Assembly (NCBI GenBank): GCA_903927025.1
Contig: CAIYLG010000053.1
Location: 62,001 to 126,000 of the forward strand
Direction: 5' to 3'
Source of the DNA: an uncultured Armatimonadota bacterium
GTDB lineage: Bacteria > Armatimonadota > Fimbriimonadia > Fimbriimonadales > Fimbriimonadaceae
DNA length: 64,000 nucleotides
A model generated the notes under the pieces. It worked only from the letters and a program-made list of their open reading frames with translations, made no database searches and had not been told where the DNA came from. The position numbers and the translations under genes were made by a program. This document shows positions 23,665 to 33,624 of this stretch, one piece after another (the first letter of the stretch is position 1; each line of letters begins with the position of its first letter).

Positions 23665-23767
23665 GGCTGCGTATAAACCGGCGTGAAAAATCTGCAGCAT
23701 TGAACTTGACCGGCGCTAGTCGATTTCTGACGCCAGCGACTTAGCCCAAACGACCGCAGTCATGTCG

Positions 23768-23773
23768 TACCAT
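23768..23773 (+). promoter_or_regulatory. -10 box TACCAT of a leaderless promoter (Clp N-domain gene 2)
   Basis: TACCAT within TGTCGTACCAT, 6 nt before the ATG at 23780. It shares TGTCGTAC with the other two paralogs. Confidence 0.6.
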
Positions 23774-23779
23774 TACGGC

Positions 23780-25156
23780 ATGTGGCAGATGTTTACGGGA
23801 CCGGCTCGTGCAGCCGTCTTCGATGCACAAAAGGTTGCTGAGGAGTTAGGACAAAGTTATATTGCTCCAGAGCACTTTCTGCTCGCTCTTGTGAGAATGA
23901 GGGATACGAACGCACTAACTGCACTGATTCAAATGGGCTTTGTGGTTGAAGATGTCGAGAAGGAAATCCTCAAACAATTTCCGTCGAAGAAGCAAAAACT
24001 TGAGGCCGACAGGACTCTCACTCCACGTTCAAGGCAAGCGATCGACTTCGCCTATGATGAGGCTCGCAAATTCGGTCATTGCTATATCGGCACTGATCAC
24101 CTCCTTCTCGGGCTACTCCGGGAGCGAGGCAACTTCGCAGGCGGGGTGCTGAAGAAGCTTGGAATGGACCTCCACCGGTGTCGGGATATCGTCCGTGGGC
24201 TGAGCAAAGAGAACAGTGTCGAAAGGGAATCTGATGACGCGACATACAGCTTCGATCAGCGATATTCCCGAACTGCGCGGAAGGTTATCAGGCGGGCCAT
24301 GTTTGCTGCTTCGGACGAGGGCCAAAAGCTTGTGGACACCGAGTTCTTGCTAATGAGCATCATTTCCGAGGAGGATCACTCTGCAGCCAAAGTCTTAGCC
24401 CATTTGAATGTTGATGTGGAGCAAATCAAGCTGAGAATTGTTGAAACATCCACCGCGAGCGAGAGCGCGACAGAATCACAAGTGCGCTTTTCACCCGCAA
24501 CACATTCGGCAATCCGTCTGGCGATTGAGGAGGCAACCCTCATGGGACATGACCGCGCTGGAACAGTGCATCTGCTCATGGGTCTCGTGCGCGAAGAAGC
24601 GGGCCGAGCCGCCCAGATTCTTCGCTGGTGCAATTTAGACACGACGAAAATACGTGAAGCGTTCGAAGCAATGAATCTCGACACTTCAGATGAGAATCGG
24701 GGGCCCTATCAAGAAGACCTTGATGAAGCAAAAGTGCGGTTCGCGAAGATCACTCGGGTGCATCTTGAACGGCAGCTGTCAGTTCAATCCGATCTCCTAT
24801 GCATCGGTCTCCTGAGAGAGGGAGCGACGCTACAATCTGCCTTGGTCGACCTCTCCCTCGATAAAGAGACCGTAGCTTTAGCTGTTTACAGTGCAGTTCT
24901 GGCTAGCCGCCGAAGTCAAACGGCAGAGAATTCGTCAATCACATTTGCAGACCTCTTGGCCAGGGCGAAGACAGAAGCTAAGGAGCTTAGGCAGGACTTC
25001 GACGAGCCTCACTTCCTTTTGGCGATGCTCCGGAATGGTAATACCGCTACGGCGAGAGCTCTCCAAGCAAATGGCATCACTTATGAGAACCTGAGAGACT
25101 GGGTCGCACTCAACCTTCCTAGCCAAGGGCACATCGACGAGCGCAATCCAGGTTAA
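23780..25156 (+). CDS. Clp N-domain-only protein 2 (six Clp_N repeats)
   Basis: A 458-residue protein made of about six Clp_N repeats, i.e. three double domains in a row. Repeat landmarks are MWQMFTGPARAAVFDAQ...APEHFLLALVRM, LTPRSRQAIDFAYDEA...GTDHLLLGLLRE, RTARKVIRRAMFAA...DTEFLLMSII, FSPATHSAIRLAIEEA...GTVHLLMGLVRE, a weaker fifth, and FADLLARAKTEAKEL...DEPHFLLAMLR. No Walker motifs are present. I chose ATG 23780 and not the in-frame ATG at 23762, because the paralogs also begin MWQ and a -10 box lies 6 nt upstream. Possible functions are a multivalent substrate or adaptor scaffold for a Clp protease; this is not demonstrated. Confidence 0.85.
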   Translation: MWQMFTGPARAAVFDAQKVAEELGQSYIAPEHFLLALVRMRDTNALTALIQMGFVVEDVEKEILKQFPSKKQKLEADRTLTPRSRQAIDFAYDEARKFGHCYIGTDHLLLGLLRERGNFAGGVLKKLGMDLHRCRDIVRGLSKENSVERESDDATYSFDQRYSRTARKVIRRAMFAASDEGQKLVDTEFLLMSIISEEDHSAAKVLAHLNVDVEQIKLRIVETSTASESATESQVRFSPATHSAIRLAIEEATLMGHDRAGTVHLLMGLVREEAGRAAQILRWCNLDTTKIREAFEAMNLDTSDENRGPYQEDLDEAKVRFAKITRVHLERQLSVQSDLLCIGLLREGATLQSALVDLSLDKETVALAVYSAVLASRRSQTAENSSITFADLLARAKTEAKELRQDFDEPHFLLAMLRNGNTATARALQANGITYENLRDWVALNLPSQGHIDERNPG

Positions 25157-25220
25157 GGAATCGTGAGTGGTGCTGGACTTTTCGGTCTGACCCCTCGATA
25201 TCCATTGCTCGACTCTGTCG

Positions 25221-25226
25221 TACACT
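25221..25226 (+). promoter_or_regulatory. -10 box TACACT of a leaderless promoter (Clp N-domain gene 3)
   Basis: TACACT lies 7 nt before the ATG at 25234. The upstream sequence ACTCTGTCGTAC and the following TTTT and CCATGTGGCAACGG match gene 1 closely. Confidence 0.65.
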
Positions 25227-25233
25227 TTTTCCC

Positions 25234-26151
25234 ATGTGGCAACGGTTTACGGAAGGGGCGAGGAAAGTTGTGTTTAACGCGCAGGAAGCTGCTCAGCGTG
25301 CCGGGGAGCCTTACGTCAGCACGGAGCATCTGTTGGTGGGTCTCGTGAGAGATCGTGAAAATGACGCATCAAGGGTGCTTCGAGCCATCAGTCTTGCACC
25401 CGAAGACGTTGAGATCGAAATCTCAAAGCACTTGCCCAATGATGGTCAAAAAAAGAGGACCTCAGACATGACGCTGACACCAAGAGCGAAAAGAGTGATT
25501 GACTTAGCGTATGACGAAGCGCGCAACCTGAGCAACAACTACATTGGCACGGAACATCTGTTGCTCGGCCTCATCCGCGAGGGAGACGGGCTGGCAGGAA
25601 GAGTGCTTGACAACATGGGAGCCTCACTGGAAATCACCCGCAAGGCGGTGATGGCAGTGCAGAAATCTAAGGGCCAAACAGCCACCGATTCCGTTAAACC
25701 CGCCTCCTCGAACCATGATCCAGCGCAGACATCGCAAACTCCCAACTTCCGCGCCCTCAGCTCACACTCGGCAGTATTGACCTTGGCTAGACTCACGGGA
25801 ACGATGACGGGAGACCACCTCTGCGTTATGCTTCTGTGCGAAGATGCCACGACGGCTCAGGCACTTACCTCTTTCGGTGGAAACACCAACGCGATTGTCA
25901 GCATGATTCGGGACAGGATCTTGCAGCCAAAGACGGCTGAAGAACTCGCCGAGGGCTTTATCAGTGCCTCAGAGCTGATTCCTCTTGCCGCGGCTGAAGC
26001 CGAAGCTTGTCAGCAAGAGCTGCATCCACTTCACTTCCTCCTTGCTGCCGCGAGTTCTGGGAAGTCGGTGACAGCGATCGCACTCAGGGCTGCGGGCATC
26101 ACCTATGAGAAATTGAAGAGCTACCTGTTGCCCGACGCAACGGAGCCTTAA
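25234..26151 (+). CDS. Clp N-domain-only protein 3 (four Clp_N repeats)
   Basis: A 305-residue protein with four Clp_N repeats. The first double domain (MWQRFTEGARKVVFNAQEAAQ...STEHLLVGLVRD and LTPRAKRVIDLAYDEARNL...GTEHLLLGLIRE) is close to bacterial ClpC. A Ser/Thr/Pro linker and a second, diverged double domain follow, ending ELHPLHFLLAAASSG and ITYEKLKSYLLP. No ATPase module is present. The second domain resembles the last part of paralog 2 (ITYENLRDWVALNLP), so the family grew by duplication and fusion of units. The stop overlaps that of the convergent glycosyltransferase gene (TTAA). Confidence 0.87.
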   Translation: MWQRFTEGARKVVFNAQEAAQRAGEPYVSTEHLLVGLVRDRENDASRVLRAISLAPEDVEIEISKHLPNDGQKKRTSDMTLTPRAKRVIDLAYDEARNLSNNYIGTEHLLLGLIREGDGLAGRVLDNMGASLEITRKAVMAVQKSKGQTATDSVKPASSNHDPAQTSQTPNFRALSSHSAVLTLARLTGTMTGDHLCVMLLCEDATTAQALTSFGGNTNAIVSMIRDRILQPKTAEELAEGFISASELIPLAAAEAEACQQELHPLHFLLAAASSGKSVTAIALRAAGITYEKLKSYLLPDATEP

Positions 26152-27630: not shown

Positions 27631-28623
27631 GTGGCAGAAATTCTTGAAATGACCAACCGAGGGTTGTTCTGTCCAGCCGGAGACTTCTACATTGACCCGT
27701 GGCGCTCCGTTGATAGGGCCGTTGTCACCCATGCCCACTCTGACCATGCTCGCCCCGGCATGCGCAACTATCTGTGCAGCGCAGAAGGAGAAACCGTGCT
27801 CCGCCTCAGAGTCGGAGCGAAGTCCGCAATTCAGGCTCTTGAATACGGCGAAGTTGTCGAGATGAATGGAGTCAAACTAAGCCTTCATCCCGCCGGCCAC
27901 ATCTTGGGCTCATCCCAGGTCCGAGTGGAGTTGAACGGGGAAGTCATCGTGGTCTCGGGCGACTACAAGACGGAGGCTGACTCCACCTGCACGCCGTTTG
28001 AGCCAGTAAAGTGCCACACGTTCATCACGGAATCCACTTTCGGACTCCCGATCTACACGTGGGCAAAGGAAGGTGCGGTCTTCTCCCAAGTGAACGACTG
28101 GTGGCGCAACAATCAAGCCGAGGGCTTCGCTTCTGTGCTCTATGGCTACTCACTTGGTAAGTCGCAAAGGGCACTCGCTGGGCTTGACCCCGGAATTGGC
28201 CCCATCTTTGAACACGAAACGCTACGACCCTACACCAACGCCTACCGATCAGCAGGGATTCAGCTTCCCAAGACCAAAACCATTGGTCGCGCCAAAGAAG
28301 ACTTTGATTGGGCAACGGCAATGATTCTCGCCCCTCCTGGGTCTATGACTTCTGCGTGGAGAGCCCACATCGGACCGATGCGAACTGCCTTTATGTCTGG
28401 CTGGATGGCGGTTAGGAAGGGAAGCCGTGGGCGGGGTGGACAGTTTGGATTTGTGGTGAGCGATCATGTCGATTGGCCCTCCCTCATGAGTGCGATCGCC
28501 GCGACGGAGGCCGAGCGTGTGCTGGTCACACACGGCTTCTCCAAGACGGTCGTGCGATATCTTCGTGAAACCGGTCTTGAAGCGTACGAACTGGGAAGCG
28601 AATGGACTGGCGAGCAGGAATGA
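27631..28623 (+). CDS. Ligase-associated DNA exonuclease (metallo-beta-lactamase / beta-CASP-like)
   Basis: A 330-residue MBL-fold nuclease. Visible features are the start LFCPAGDFYIDPWRSVDRAVVTHAHSDHARPG with the HxHxDH metal motif, then HPAGHILGSSQVRV and GDYKTEAD. VTHGF near the C-terminus is the last conserved His block. This family usually sits with an ATP-dependent DNA ligase and a Lhr-like helicase and is thought to act in DNA repair. The start is GTG 27631; a later ATG at 27649 would cut the conserved N-terminus short. The gene overlaps the ligase-like gene by 4 nt (ATGA). No Lhr helicase or phosphoesterase gene follows here. Confidence 0.9.
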   Translation: MAEILEMTNRGLFCPAGDFYIDPWRSVDRAVVTHAHSDHARPGMRNYLCSAEGETVLRLRVGAKSAIQALEYGEVVEMNGVKLSLHPAGHILGSSQVRVELNGEVIVVSGDYKTEADSTCTPFEPVKCHTFITESTFGLPIYTWAKEGAVFSQVNDWWRNNQAEGFASVLYGYSLGKSQRALAGLDPGIGPIFEHETLRPYTNAYRSAGIQLPKTKTIGRAKEDFDWATAMILAPPGSMTSAWRAHIGPMRTAFMSGWMAVRKGSRGRGGQFGFVVSDHVDWPSLMSAIAATEAERVLVTHGFSKTVVRYLRETGLEAYELGSEWTGEQE

Positions 28624-29624
28624 AGCGCTTTGCAGAACTTTGCCGACTTCTAGATCGAGCGGAACCAGGAAGTGAAGTGGCAGCTCTCCTGTCCAGCTAC
28701 TTGTCTTCGTGCAACTCAGAAGACGCAGCATGGTCGATTTACCTCCTGGTGCCCCAGTCCAGAAATCGATATCTCTCAACTCAGCGCTTGAAGAAAGCGT
28801 GCCTTGAAGTCACTGGAATCCCAGATTGGCTCTACTCGGAATGCATGGACGAAACTGGAGACGCCAGCGAGACCATTGCCCTGCTTCTGCCTAACCCTGA
28901 CGATCGTGAGCCGGAAGATGCTCCTTTGGCAGTCTGGATGAATGAACGACTTCCTACCCTCACTTCAGGCCCAATCGACGACGCCCTGATCCGTTTGAAG
29001 GAGTTTTGGGTTCAGGTCGATTCCGATTCTCGCATGACTCTCAACAAGCTCGTCACTGGCACGCGCCCAGCGAAAGTGTCGGTTCAAGATTTGGCCCGGG
29101 GGCTTTCGGCTCTATGCGGAACCATCAGCCCCGTACTAGAGGCAAGACTGTCTAGCCCCTTTTCGCCGACCCCGGAATGGTACGGCTTGCTGAAGTCACC
29201 TGCCACGCTGGAGGAGTTGGCTGAAGCCAATCGAAGATTGGTGTCCCCGTCGGAGAAGCAAGAGTTCACAGCCGTGCTGATGTACGCCGAACGTGGGTCC
29301 TCGGGTGACTTGGTCCTCTTTACCTTTGGGGTTTGGCACGAGAAAATTCTTGTTTCAACCGCCAAAGTTCCGTGGGTGCGAGACAGGGAAGTTGAATTGG
29401 CCATCGAAGCATTCGTCCGCGAAAACACCCTAGAGAAAAGAGGGCCAATCCGAGTGGTTCCACCTAAGGTCGTCGTCAGGTTGGAATTCGAGGGCGTCAT
29501 CATCGCGCCTAAGAGAAAGGCCGGCATCGAACTATTGCAGCCTACGGTTGCCGAATGGCTGATCGATGCCGACCCTATCGAGGCGTCGACCCTTCAGTGG
29601 CTGAAGGGTCTGATTGCTGGCTGA
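28620..29624 (+). CDS. ATP-dependent DNA ligase-like protein without the nucleotidyltransferase domain
   Basis: A 334-residue protein that aligns by eye with both ends of the bacterial ligase found beside the exonuclease. Residues 1-195 match the N-terminal DNA-binding domain (MKRFAELCRLLDRAEPG, DAAWSIYLL, LSTQRLKKACLEVTGIPDWLYSEC, and SSPFSPTPEWYGLL). Residues 216-334 match the C-terminal OB-fold (TAVLMYAERGSS, FTFGVWHEK, VRENTLEKRGPIRVV, VVVRLEFEGVIIAPKRKAGIEL). The catalytic core between them, about 200 residues with the KxDG lysine, is replaced by a linker of about 20 residues. The frame is intact, so this reads as a real domain loss and not decay. It cannot ligate as a normal enzyme. It may be a DNA-binding partner of the exonuclease. 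Confidence 0.85.
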   Translation: MKRFAELCRLLDRAEPGSEVAALLSSYLSSCNSEDAAWSIYLLVPQSRNRYLSTQRLKKACLEVTGIPDWLYSECMDETGDASETIALLLPNPDDREPEDAPLAVWMNERLPTLTSGPIDDALIRLKEFWVQVDSDSRMTLNKLVTGTRPAKVSVQDLARGLSALCGTISPVLEARLSSPFSPTPEWYGLLKSPATLEELAEANRRLVSPSEKQEFTAVLMYAERGSSGDLVLFTFGVWHEKILVSTAKVPWVRDREVELAIEAFVRENTLEKRGPIRVVPPKVVVRLEFEGVIIAPKRKAGIELLQPTVAEWLIDADPIEASTLQWLKGLIAG

Positions 29625-30531: not shown

Positions 30532-32178
30532 TTACTTCCCCTTTCCTCGTCCGGCGGGTGCGGAAGCAGTAGGAGTCACGAGTTGCGCTGCTGCAGTTGC
30601 TGTAGGCGGATTGTAGCCGGCGTCATTGTAGTGCATCAAGAATGGGCTGTTCTTTCCGAGTCCCTCGTTAGGCGGAAGGGGCTTCGAACTCGCATTGCGC
30701 TTGAATTTCTTGGCCGCCGATTTGAGAATAGTCGGCCTTTGCTCTTCATCAATCAGCTTCGCGTGTCCGTCTACAAATCCGACCGCATTCTTTTCCTTTG
30801 GATTGGGAAGTTTTTCGAGCCAGAGAACCGTGGATTCAGGCTCTGGGATGTCCGTGGTAAGCACGCCGCCCACGTTGAGGTTGTAAAGGAATTTGCCACC
30901 CTTGGTGGGTGAGTGGAATATTTTGACGTTCCGGATGTAAGGCGAGGTAATCGCCATCACAGACGCTGTCTGCTGAACGTACGGGAGCATCGCATCATAG
31001 TCCTGGGCATACATGATGGTGCCGAGACAAATCTGCTTGAGGTTGCTCAGGGCTTGAGTCCGCTCGTTCCCAGATGTTGCCTGCTCTGTTCCCTGAGTCG
31101 AGGCGTGGATGGAAGCAAAAACGGGTACGGCCGCAGCCGCAATCAGCAATCCTGCCAGCACCTGCACCGTTGTAATGCCGCGGCGACCTGCCGAAGGCGA
31201 GAGAATCGATTCGAGGCGTGTTTCAATCTTCGAGTTTTTCATAGCGTGTGTTCCCAAGGCTGCGAAAGGAATACGGCGGCCGCGAATTTCGGCTGCAATT
31301 GACAGAAGTTCGGAGGCATATTCGGAGGGTCTAAGACCACTTCGAACCACGGCTTCATCAGCGGCAAGCTCAGCGTCTGATCGGAGTGAGCGAGAGACGA
31401 ACCAAACTGCAGGATGAAACCAATAGGCGGCACAAACCAGTTCAGCGATGATCTGCGTGCTAAAGTCGCAGCGCCGAACGTGAGACAGTTCGTGGAGAAG
31501 AGTCGATTCCAATCTGGACTCACTCCATGATCCTGCGTCTTCCGGAAGAACGACTACGGGCTTCCACACACCCCAGGTGATCGGCACAGGAAACGCATCG
31601 GTGGAGCTCAAGCGAACCCTCACCGACCGACGCAATCCTAAGCGACGGGCGGCAGCATCAACTGCATCCTCCATCCAATCGCAGGGAAGAGGTTGCGTTC
31701 CAAAAGTGTTGATCGCCCTTAGTAGGTACAGGCCATGGACCATCCGAATAAGGACAGCAAGGAACCCGATGAACCAAATTGCACACAGTGCCTGGATAAG
31801 GGGGGAGCGAAAAACCGATAGGTTTTGATCGGCAACCGTAAACTCCTCAATGGAGTCAGGATGCCTAGCAGTCTCGACTGACTGAACGGTGTTGTCAACA
31901 AGACTAACAGGAATCGCTTGTACTGCCCCCACGTCCTTACGAATCGAAGGCTTCTTTTCAAGATTCAAGTAGAGCACTGGATTCCATGGCACCACCGCAG
32001 AGAGTGCGGGAACCATCACCATTGCCCCCAGGCCAACCAACCAAATAAGGTGCGCTCCAGAGGGATGACGCCGGCGGATCAGCCGTGCCAAACCAGCACA
32101 GATGCCCGAAATGATGGCCACTTTCAGCAAAAGCTCGACCAAAAAGAGGCAAGCATCGCCAATCCAGAAGGAGCTCAT
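30532..32178 (-). CDS. BlaR1-like M56 metallopeptidase fused to an H-X9-DG pseudopilin-type domain
   Basis: A 548-residue membrane protein. Helices near 10-30, 44-65 and 125-150 precede an M56 zinc-peptidase domain with HELSH (229-233) and the downstream Glu in SDAELAADEAV. A fourth helix (VQVLAGLLIAAAAVPVFAS, about 338-356) follows. Where BlaR1 has a penicillin-binding sensor, this protein has the domain typical of H-X9-DG pseudopilin-like proteins: LSNLKQICLGTIMYAQDYDAMLPY, and FVDGHAK near 469-474. In BlaR1 systems, sensor binding activates the protease, which leads to repressor loss; here the signal must differ. It overlaps the blaI-type repressor gene by 4 nt. Confidence 0.88.
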   Translation of the reverse strand: MSSFWIGDACLFLVELLLKVAIISGICAGLARLIRRRHPSGAHLIWLVGLGAMVMVPALSAVVPWNPVLYLNLEKKPSIRKDVGAVQAIPVSLVDNTVQSVETARHPDSIEEFTVADQNLSVFRSPLIQALCAIWFIGFLAVLIRMVHGLYLLRAINTFGTQPLPCDWMEDAVDAAARRLGLRRSVRVRLSSTDAFPVPITWGVWKPVVVLPEDAGSWSESRLESTLLHELSHVRRCDFSTQIIAELVCAAYWFHPAVWFVSRSLRSDAELAADEAVVRSGLRPSEYASELLSIAAEIRGRRIPFAALGTHAMKNSKIETRLESILSPSAGRRGITTVQVLAGLLIAAAAVPVFASIHASTQGTEQATSGNERTQALSNLKQICLGTIMYAQDYDAMLPYVQQTASVMAITSPYIRNVKIFHSPTKGGKFLYNLNVGGVLTTDIPEPESTVLWLEKLPNPKEKNAVGFVDGHAKLIDEEQRPTILKSAAKKFKRNASSKPLPPNEGLGKNSPFLMHYNDAGYNPPTATAAAQLVTPTASAPAGRGKGK

Positions 32179-32561
32179 CTTCCTTGCTCCTTCGCTCGTT
32201 GGATGAGTTCAGTGAGCCGGTTCAGAGTTTCGTCTGATACCGTGCCTGAATCTGGCTCAATCAGCGTGGCAACGACACGCTCAATTGAACCTCCAAAGAA
32301 GTTTTCAACCACACCAGCAATGACATCCTTCGCCATTTCCTCGCGTGGGACCACGGGTTCGTAGATATGGCGTGCACCCTGCCGATCAAATCGAATCAGC
32401 CCCTTGGCCTCTAGGAGGGCCAGCTGGGTTCGAACCGCAGTGTAGGTCGGTGGGGAAGGGATCGCGTCACGAATCTCGACCGCGGTCGCCTTACCGAGGC
32501 GATAAAGCGCCTCCATAATCTGCCGCTCCCTGCGACTCAAATCTGTCTTTTCTTGAGACAT
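32175..32561 (-). CDS. BlaI/MecI/CopY-type repressor
   Basis: A 128-residue winged-helix repressor: LSRRERQIMEALYRLGKATAVEIRDAIPSPPTYTAVRTQLALLEAKGLIRF, then the dimerisation part with FFGGSIERVVATLI. The family represses its own operon and is removed when the partner M56 protease is activated. Here it is the first gene of the two-gene operon and overlaps the protease gene by 4 nt. Its start codon lies inside the palindrome TGCCAA-ATTA-TTGGCA, with more TGCCA/TGGCA repeats just upstream, so autoregulation is likely. Confidence 0.93.
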   Translation of the reverse strand: MSQEKTDLSRRERQIMEALYRLGKATAVEIRDAIPSPPTYTAVRTQLALLEAKGLIRFDRQGARHIYEPVVPREEMAKDVIAGVVENFFGGSIERVVATLIEPDSGTVSDETLNRLTELIQRAKEQGR

Positions 32562-32622
32562 GCCAAATTATTGGCACATCTTTTTCCAAGTGCCAACTGT
32601 TCTGCCAAAAAAGTGGCAGAAC
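32561..32622. promoter_or_regulatory. Cluster of TGCCA/TGGCA repeats, probable operators of the repressor operon
   Basis: Three elements: TGCCAAATTATTGGCA (32561-32576), covering the start codon; a half-site TGCCAA (32591-32596); and GTTCTGCCA/TGGCAGAAC (32599-32607 and 32614-32622). On the minus strand TTGGCA could also act as a -35 box, 17-18 nt before an AATAAT-like -10. BlaI family operators are usually TACA/TGTA type, so this sequence would be a different specificity. Confidence 0.6.
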
Positions 32623-32784
32623 TTTTTCGCAGACAATCTTTCAGAGCTGGTCAGCCCGCCATGGGGCACACCGGCGGGGTCCCTCAACCGCCTCAAGTGG
32701 CTCAGAAACTCGGCCAAGGGATTCAAGGCTCCACTTTTCATGTTGCACTCCGACCATCCGCATGGGTGCCGGGAATGCCAAGAG

Positions 32785-33462
32785 TCACTTCGGAGGCGGG
32801 GTGGCACCTACTTCTGGGAATCTCCACAAGTAGGTGCTGTTCTTGCCAAGGCCCTCATTAATCGGCAGTGGGTTCGAGCCTTTCACCCGCTTGAACTTTA
32901 GCGCGACCGATTTATTCACCGCGACCCTCTCATTCTCGTTAATCAGCTTCGCATGCCCATCTACAAACCCAACAGCATTCTTCAGTTTCGGGTTGGGCAA
33001 CTTCTCAAACCACAGAACCGATAGCGCAGGTTCAGGAATATCCGTCATCAAAACTCCACCAACGTTAAGGTTGTAGAGGAATTTGCCGCCCTTGGTTGGT
33101 GACTGATATGACTTGGTGTCCTTAACGTACGGAGATGTGATCGCCATGGCTGACAGTGTCTGCTGGGCGTAAGGAAATGTACCGTCGAAATCGTTGGCGT
33201 ACATGATCATTGCCGCTGTGATCTGCTTTATGTTTTTGAGTGCGGTCGACCTTTGATCGCTGCTGGCCGAATCCGCGGCGGACTGAGTAGACGGGTGAAG
33301 GGTGGCGAACACCGGTACAACACAAACAACAAAGACGATCCCCACAAGGACTTGCAGAGTGGTGGTGCCCCGCTTGCCGGCAACGGGAGCGGAAGTCGAT
33401 TCAAGACTAGTTTCAAACTTCGAACTATTCATGGCATTTTTTCCCAAGGCTGAGAAAGGCAT
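32785..33462 (-). CDS. Truncated paralog of the M56 fusion: membrane helix plus H-X9-DG domain only
   Basis: From ATG 33462 this gives 225 residues that match the C-terminal part of the M56 fusion from its residue 303 onward: MPFSALGKNAMNSSKFETSLES against IPFAALGTHAMKNSKIETRLES. A membrane helix (LQVLVGIVFVVCVVPVFATLHP) follows, then the domain with LKNIKQITAAMIMYANDFDGTFPY and FVDGHAK. The M56 peptidase part is absent. Sequence about 120-150 nt upstream (33584-33615) resembles the repressor operator of the intact operon. This suggests a whole-operon duplication that then lost the repressor and peptidase. The frame also extends upstream to TTG 33528, and ATG 33432 is possible. Whether it is expressed is unknown. 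Confidence 0.7.
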   Translation of the reverse strand: MPFSALGKNAMNSSKFETSLESTSAPVAGKRGTTTLQVLVGIVFVVCVVPVFATLHPSTQSAADSASSDQRSTALKNIKQITAAMIMYANDFDGTFPYAQQTLSAMAITSPYVKDTKSYQSPTKGGKFLYNLNVGGVLMTDIPEPALSVLWFEKLPNPKLKNAVGFVDGHAKLINENERVAVNKSVALKFKRVKGSNPLPINEGLGKNSTYLWRFPEVGATPPPK

Positions 33463-33624
33463 TCGGCGATGGGGATTCCTTCCAGGCAAGTGCTTCTGGT
33501 GGTGAAGAGATGGCAATCCAGATGTCAATTGGAGCCCAAGCTCCCACAGACTTATTGAATTATTGATCCGTTTCCTTCAAATCGCCAAAGGTTCCCAAAA
33601 AAAGTAGCAGAAATTGCCTGTGAC

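Follow-up and report, generated by a model that had tools for sequence, protein, structure and literature searches.

A core-less ligase homolog follows a ligase-associated exonuclease gene

Analysis of a 64,000-nucleotide stretch of contig CAIYLG010000053.1 from an uncultured Armatimonadota bacterium (here called the window) revealed a gene encoding a ligase-associated exonuclease, followed directly by a gene encoding a homolog of ATP-dependent DNA ligases (Table 1). The exonuclease matched TIGR04122 with 441.9 bits (cut-off, 325) and retains the HAHSDH, PAGH, GDY, TESTFG, SDH, and THG motifs. Its AlphaFold2 (AF2) model, with a pLDDT of 88.8, aligned to aCPSF, TTHA0252, and RNase J with Z scores of 24 to 29. 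The downstream gene comprises 334 codons without interruption, and its ATG overlaps the TGA stop codon of the exonuclease gene (28621 to 28623). A second in-frame ATG is present at 28602; the homologs start at the residue equivalent to 28620.

Table 1 Features of the exonuclease-pseudo-ligase locus (window coordinates)
Feature	Position	Strand	Basis
Ligase-associated exonuclease (TIGR04122), metallo-beta-lactamase/beta-CASP fold, catalytic motifs kept	27631..28623	+	441.9 bits, motifs, AF2 model and fold search
Exonuclease residues 227-272, with basic loop 261-272 (consensus RGxRRRRxxD); segment has decayed in most exonucleases paired with a degenerate ligase	28309..28446	+	Conservation comparison
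Overlap (ATGA) between the exonuclease stop codon and the pseudo-ligase start codon	28620..28623	+	Sequence
Core-less ATP-dependent DNA ligase homolog (pseudo-ligase), 334 aa	28620..29624	+	Profile matches, alignment to relatives
Ligase DNA-binding domain, residues 1-195	28620..29204	+	PF04675; 19/26 conserved positions kept; AF2 pLDDT mostly >90
Linker, residues 196-213, site of about 205 missing nucleotidyltransferase core residues	29205..29258	+	Alignment; pLDDT <50 at residues 208-210
OB-fold domain, residues 214-334	29259..29621	+	38-47% identity to OB domains of relatives; AF2 model, fold search
Decayed motif VI, residues 312-317, EWLIDA versus RWRxDK in intact relatives	29553..29570	+	Alignment

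Two further gene groups were observed in the window. Two adjoining genes (23762 to 26151) consist of repeated Clp_N domains, with five and three matched stretches, and carry no AAA+ ATPase domain; they correspond to ClpC-like adaptor domains without a motor. On the reverse strand, the region from 30532 to 33528 contains a BlaR1-type M56 peptidase gene, a BlaI-type repressor gene, and a shorter open reading frame (32785 to 33528) with no Pfam match. This frame repeats the C-terminal "NVGGVL...DIPEP...VGFVDGHAKLI" region of the M56 peptidase and looks like a truncated partial duplicate of it.

Searches with domain profiles revealed a match of residues 4 to 148 of the ligase homolog to the ligase N-terminal domain PF04675 (38.6 bits; cut-off, 24.6), while no stretch of the protein matched the catalytic family PF01068. 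The full-length ligase models were matched in two pieces each, namely, NF006701 (E value, 5.8e-53; score, 180.7; below the cut-off of 543 bits) and TIGR04120 (E value, 3.4e-39; score, 135.2; below the cut-off of 400). On a profile of full-length relatives, the protein covers only positions 1 to 213 and 404 to 530. Alignment and profile thus place the loss of motifs I to V, about 190 to 205 positions, in frame between the two retained domains. Motif VI lies within the retained OB fold and is also destroyed. These results agree with the original prediction that the DNA-binding domain and the OB fold had been kept, that the core with the KxDG lysine was gone, and that the gene was free of frameshifts and overlapped the exonuclease gene as ATGA. 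The core had been described as replaced by about 20 residues; it is missing, but nothing has taken its place, and the approximately 18 residues in question are the linker. The OB fold, which had been called well kept, retains its fold but not its motif VI.

The lysine that becomes adenylated lies in motif I, and orientation of the leaving group during adenylation depends on motif VI (PMC4609770). Because both the core with the KxDG lysine and motif VI are missing, the window protein should be able neither to adenylate nor to ligate. Within the DNA-binding domain, 19 of the 26 positions that are at least 95% conserved among intact ligases are retained, and by this count it is the best-retained part of the protein. 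The altered positions include F149, R150, and G152, and these changes might weaken DNA binding.

In the AF2 model of the pseudo-ligase, a helical domain is joined flexibly, near residues 208 to 210, to an OB fold; the mean pLDDT was 92.9. This value reflects the fold of the family more than the stability of the window protein because the predictor's alignment contains full-length ligases. The PDB chains found by sequence match were DNA ligases. The model aligned to PDB DNA ligases over residues 1 to 334 with Z scores of 14 to 18; the overall rmsd was large, as the placement of the two domains relative to each other differs. A viral protein of 321 residues (BFVD A0A1L3IZR3) aligned over nearly the whole model (TM score, 0.46 to 0.47; rmsd, 16.7) and might be another reduced ligase.

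Distribution of the repair module in the genome and the genus

A four-gene cluster of LigB, Lhr, MPE, and exonuclease has been described, and its biological role was stated to be not known (PMC10140301). All four genes are joined in G029, G217, and many other genomes. In the window's genome they are not in one cluster: the exonuclease-ligase pair is located on contig C53, and the genes for Lhr (1111 bits) and MPE (231 bits) adjoin each other on contig C38. The module is likewise split in the congeners examined. Lhr adjoins MPE in all module-bearing genomes of the genus that were examined, and the order of exonuclease and ligase is conserved in nearly all relatives. An exonuclease above the cut-off was found in 9 of the 20 genomes of the genus, and the same nine carry an MPE above the cut-off and a ligase or degenerate-ligase frame; therefore, no genome of the genus has dropped the ligase frame while keeping the other genes.

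A search of the window's genome revealed no other PF01068 protein and no second match to A1 in a profile search. The separate nucleotidyltransferase gene envisaged in the original prediction was thus not found in the genome. The NAD+-dependent ligase LigA is present.

Loss of catalysis probably preceded deletion of the core

Comparison of the nine congeneric ligases revealed five intact proteins (G005, G006, G007, G013, and G014) and four that are not intact (the window, G004, G012, and G019). An apparent decay of motif VI in G014 was rejected because the end of the contig cuts the gene. G004, G012, and G019 carry the same exonuclease-ligase pair, and their ligases, although degenerate, are of full length and encoded by open reading frames. 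Motif I reads KRRGLR in G004, KWTGIR in G012, and KWNGKR in G019; motif V is altered and motif VI is lost in all three. Among 94 intact ligases compared across many phyla, the motif residues lost in these congeners are nearly invariant.

The window, G004, G012, and G019 formed one clade in the exonuclease tree (support, 100/99), in the Lhr tree (99/100), and in the concatenated three-gene tree (100/100), with the intact G007 as the neighbor of the clade. The closest congener of the window differed between trees (G004 with Lhr and with the three genes; G012 with the larger exonuclease set), and this disagreement does not affect the single-clade history. By parsimony, catalysis was probably lost once, in the ancestor of the four species, and the core was deleted later in the window's lineage. 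A recent deletion in a working ligase, which the original prediction had offered as one explanation, was therefore rejected as the full story, since degeneration of the ligase is already evident in the three nearest relatives; the deletion itself is nonetheless confined to this genome. The original prediction had also held that a full-length ligase in all close relatives would speak against it. The relatives' ligases are indeed full length, but in the three nearest relatives their function appears to be gone.

The core-less form, for which the original prediction had proposed a search of related genomes, was found in no other of the 291 genomes of the phylum. It was also absent from the best 80 loci listed from genome contigs elsewhere, and on plasmids only nine ordinary partial matches were found. 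Given one genome of the species and full-length relatives, an assembly or sequencing artifact might be considered, with some 600 bases missing from what is really a gene for a full-length ligase, perhaps a degenerate one. This explanation is very improbable: the deletion is exactly in frame and located far from the ends of a 140-kb contig, and the remaining gene bears evolved losses of its own, in motif VI, that resemble those of its congeners.

Degenerate ligases also occur outside the clade

Open, degenerate ligase genes beside the exonuclease were also found in three genomes outside the clade. G094 (L213), from another genus of the family, has the motif LWPGRR and also lacks about 30 core residues; the Chloroflexi metagenome-assembled genome L162 has the motif TWGGIR; and G156 (L217), from another family of the phylum, has KWEGVR, WRIWK, and RWLHDT. 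The neighboring exonucleases of all three retain intact catalytic motifs. On an exonuclease tree built without residues 227 to 272, four changes are needed to account for degenerate ligases beside the exonuclease (bootstrap range, 3 to 4). The exonucleases of L162 and G156 paired weakly in one tree; a common origin of these two was rejected because G156 grouped with the intact G128 when more taxa were included. Loss of ligase catalysis thus appears to have arisen three to four times.

Retained domains remain under constraint

Third codon positions are saturated for dN/dS, and identity at each codon position was used instead. Between the window and G004, identities at positions 1, 2, and 3 were 40, 52, and 25% in the DNA-binding domain (26, 26, and 25% after shuffling) and 54, 66, and 27% in the OB fold (29, 26, and 25% after shuffling). 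None of 2000 shuffles came near the observed second-position identity. The divergence between the window and G004 falls entirely within the degenerate clade. Given one ancestral loss of catalysis, these values indicate that both retained domains are under purifying selection within the four-genome clade. The core-less form occurs in one genome, so the signal describes the whole clade rather than the period after deletion of the core.

Divergence within the clade was scaled to that between G007 and G013. The ratios were 0.65 for Lhr, 0.64 for MPE, and 1.49 for the exonuclease. Within the ligase they reached 2.79 in the DNA-binding domain, 3.57 in those cores that remain, and 7.08 in the OB fold. 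These ratios, together with the codon-position identities, indicate that the constraint on the clade ligases is relaxed, not gone. The OB-fold branch of the window is about three times as long as that of G004 (1.35 versus 0.46), and such faster change might fit the loss of the domain that normally packs against the OB fold.

The same ratios could be read as those of a pseudogene on its way to being lost, in which the core was deleted once catalysis was no longer required and what is left has as yet acquired no stop codons. On this scale, the ligase domains evolve 4 to 11 times faster in the clade than Lhr or MPE, and the core deletion was found in a single genome. We consider this reading unlikely, since third positions are random between the window and G004 while second positions are 52 to 66% identical, none of the four frames of the clade is interrupted and each continues to lie directly behind the exonuclease gene, and degenerate frames persist beside the exonuclease in three to four lineages. 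A pseudoenzyme is characterized by loss of catalytic motifs with purifying selection kept, and this is the pattern found in the clade if catalysis was lost once in its ancestor. We conclude that the window protein is a real, evolved pseudo-ligase.

An exonuclease segment has decayed beside most degenerate ligases

Comparison of conserved positions in the exonucleases revealed a difference concentrated in residues 227 to 272. Outside this segment, exonucleases beside degenerate ligases keep 85 to 90% of the conserved positions, compared with 94% beside intact ligases. Within it, six of the seven exonucleases paired with degenerate ligases retained 50 to 70%, whereas the mean of 83 intact pairs was 94%, with one intact pair at or below 0.65 and three at or below 0.70. 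The exception is the exonuclease of G094, which keeps 85% of the segment. The decay was first noticed in the window's clade, which consequently provides no independent test; of the independent cases, L162 and G156 support co-decay, whereas G094 does not. These results suggest that the segment may be the site at which the exonuclease contacts the ligase core or hands DNA to it.

The co-decay also bears on whether the remnant acts apart from the exonuclease, for example, as a general DNA-binding or nick-binding protein or as a regulator. That the DNA-binding domain is the best-kept part would be compatible with such a role. A separate function is nevertheless quite improbable in view of the translational overlap with the exonuclease gene, the conserved order of the two genes, and the parallel decay of segment 227 to 272.

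Proposed role of the pseudo-ligase

The data are best explained by a pseudo-ligase whose role would be to bind DNA on behalf of the exonuclease, with sealing left to LigA, a reading to which we assign a probability of about 0.7. Catalysis would have been lost in the common ancestor of the four species through point changes affecting motifs I, V, and VI, and the core, no longer needed, would later have been deleted in the window's lineage. The DNA-binding domain and the OB fold would continue to bind duplex DNA at nicks, gaps, or ends, where the pseudo-ligase would hold or recruit the exonuclease. The exonuclease, the Lhr helicase, and the MPE nuclease would then process the lesion, and LigA would carry out the final sealing. 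The non-catalytic ligase beside the exonuclease that the original prediction had proposed is thus borne out by the loss of the core and motif VI, by the lack of another ATP-dependent ligase core in the genome, by the degenerate congeners, and by purifying selection; its action as a clamp or nick sensor remains a putative one.

A broader reading, which we put forward tentatively and at somewhat less than even odds, is that the first job of the module ligase may be to serve as a DNA-holding partner of the exonuclease, sealing being dispensable. Several lineages would then have dropped catalysis independently, with LigA taking over, and one would have deleted the core; exonuclease segment 227 to 272, with its RGxRRRR loop, would normally work with the ligase core. 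The unusual point is that the cluster repeatedly retains the ligase after catalysis is gone, rather than the missing core alone. Lineages that drop ligation yet keep the ligase body allow sealing to be told apart from DNA holding as the function of the ligase and indicate what is indispensable to the cluster. Such lineages further provide a graded series from the intact G007 through the degenerate G019, G012, and G004 to the core-less window protein, together with a defined exonuclease segment to mutate.

Comparison with known systems

The closest known system is the LigB-type ligase of the Lhr/MPE/exonuclease cluster (TIGR04120, "cisplatin damage response ligase") (PMC10140301). The window protein shares with it the DNA-binding domain, the OB fold, the neighboring and overlapping exonuclease gene, and the presence of Lhr and MPE in the genome. 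It differs in lacking the nucleotidyltransferase core, the KxDG lysine, and motif VI and in having Lhr and MPE at a separate locus. No bacterial pseudo-DNA-ligase of this kind was found in the part of the literature covered by our search.

Parallels are known from other systems. The middle domain of the vaccinia virus processivity factor A20 is an inactive DNA ligase (PMC11142717). Like A20, the window protein would be a ligase that has lost catalysis but persists in a structural capacity within a complex that processes DNA. A20, however, is a viral polymerase cofactor in an unrelated pathway and retains the dead catalytic subdomain with the OB fold, whereas the window protein retains the DNA-binding domain with the OB fold and has no catalytic subdomain. 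The DNA-binding domain of human LigIV is a docking site for Artemis, a metallo-beta-lactamase nuclease (PMC3664939). Even when catalytically dead, Lig4 retains a structural function in organizing repair, with sealing carried out by Lig3 (PMC11754673). Unlike the window protein, human LigIV normally has catalytic activity, but both systems pair a ligase DNA-binding domain with a metallo-beta-lactamase nuclease, the contact in the bacterial pair being putative. By analogy, LigIV-Artemis, dead Lig4, and A20 make a DNA-holding role of the pseudo-ligase plausible.
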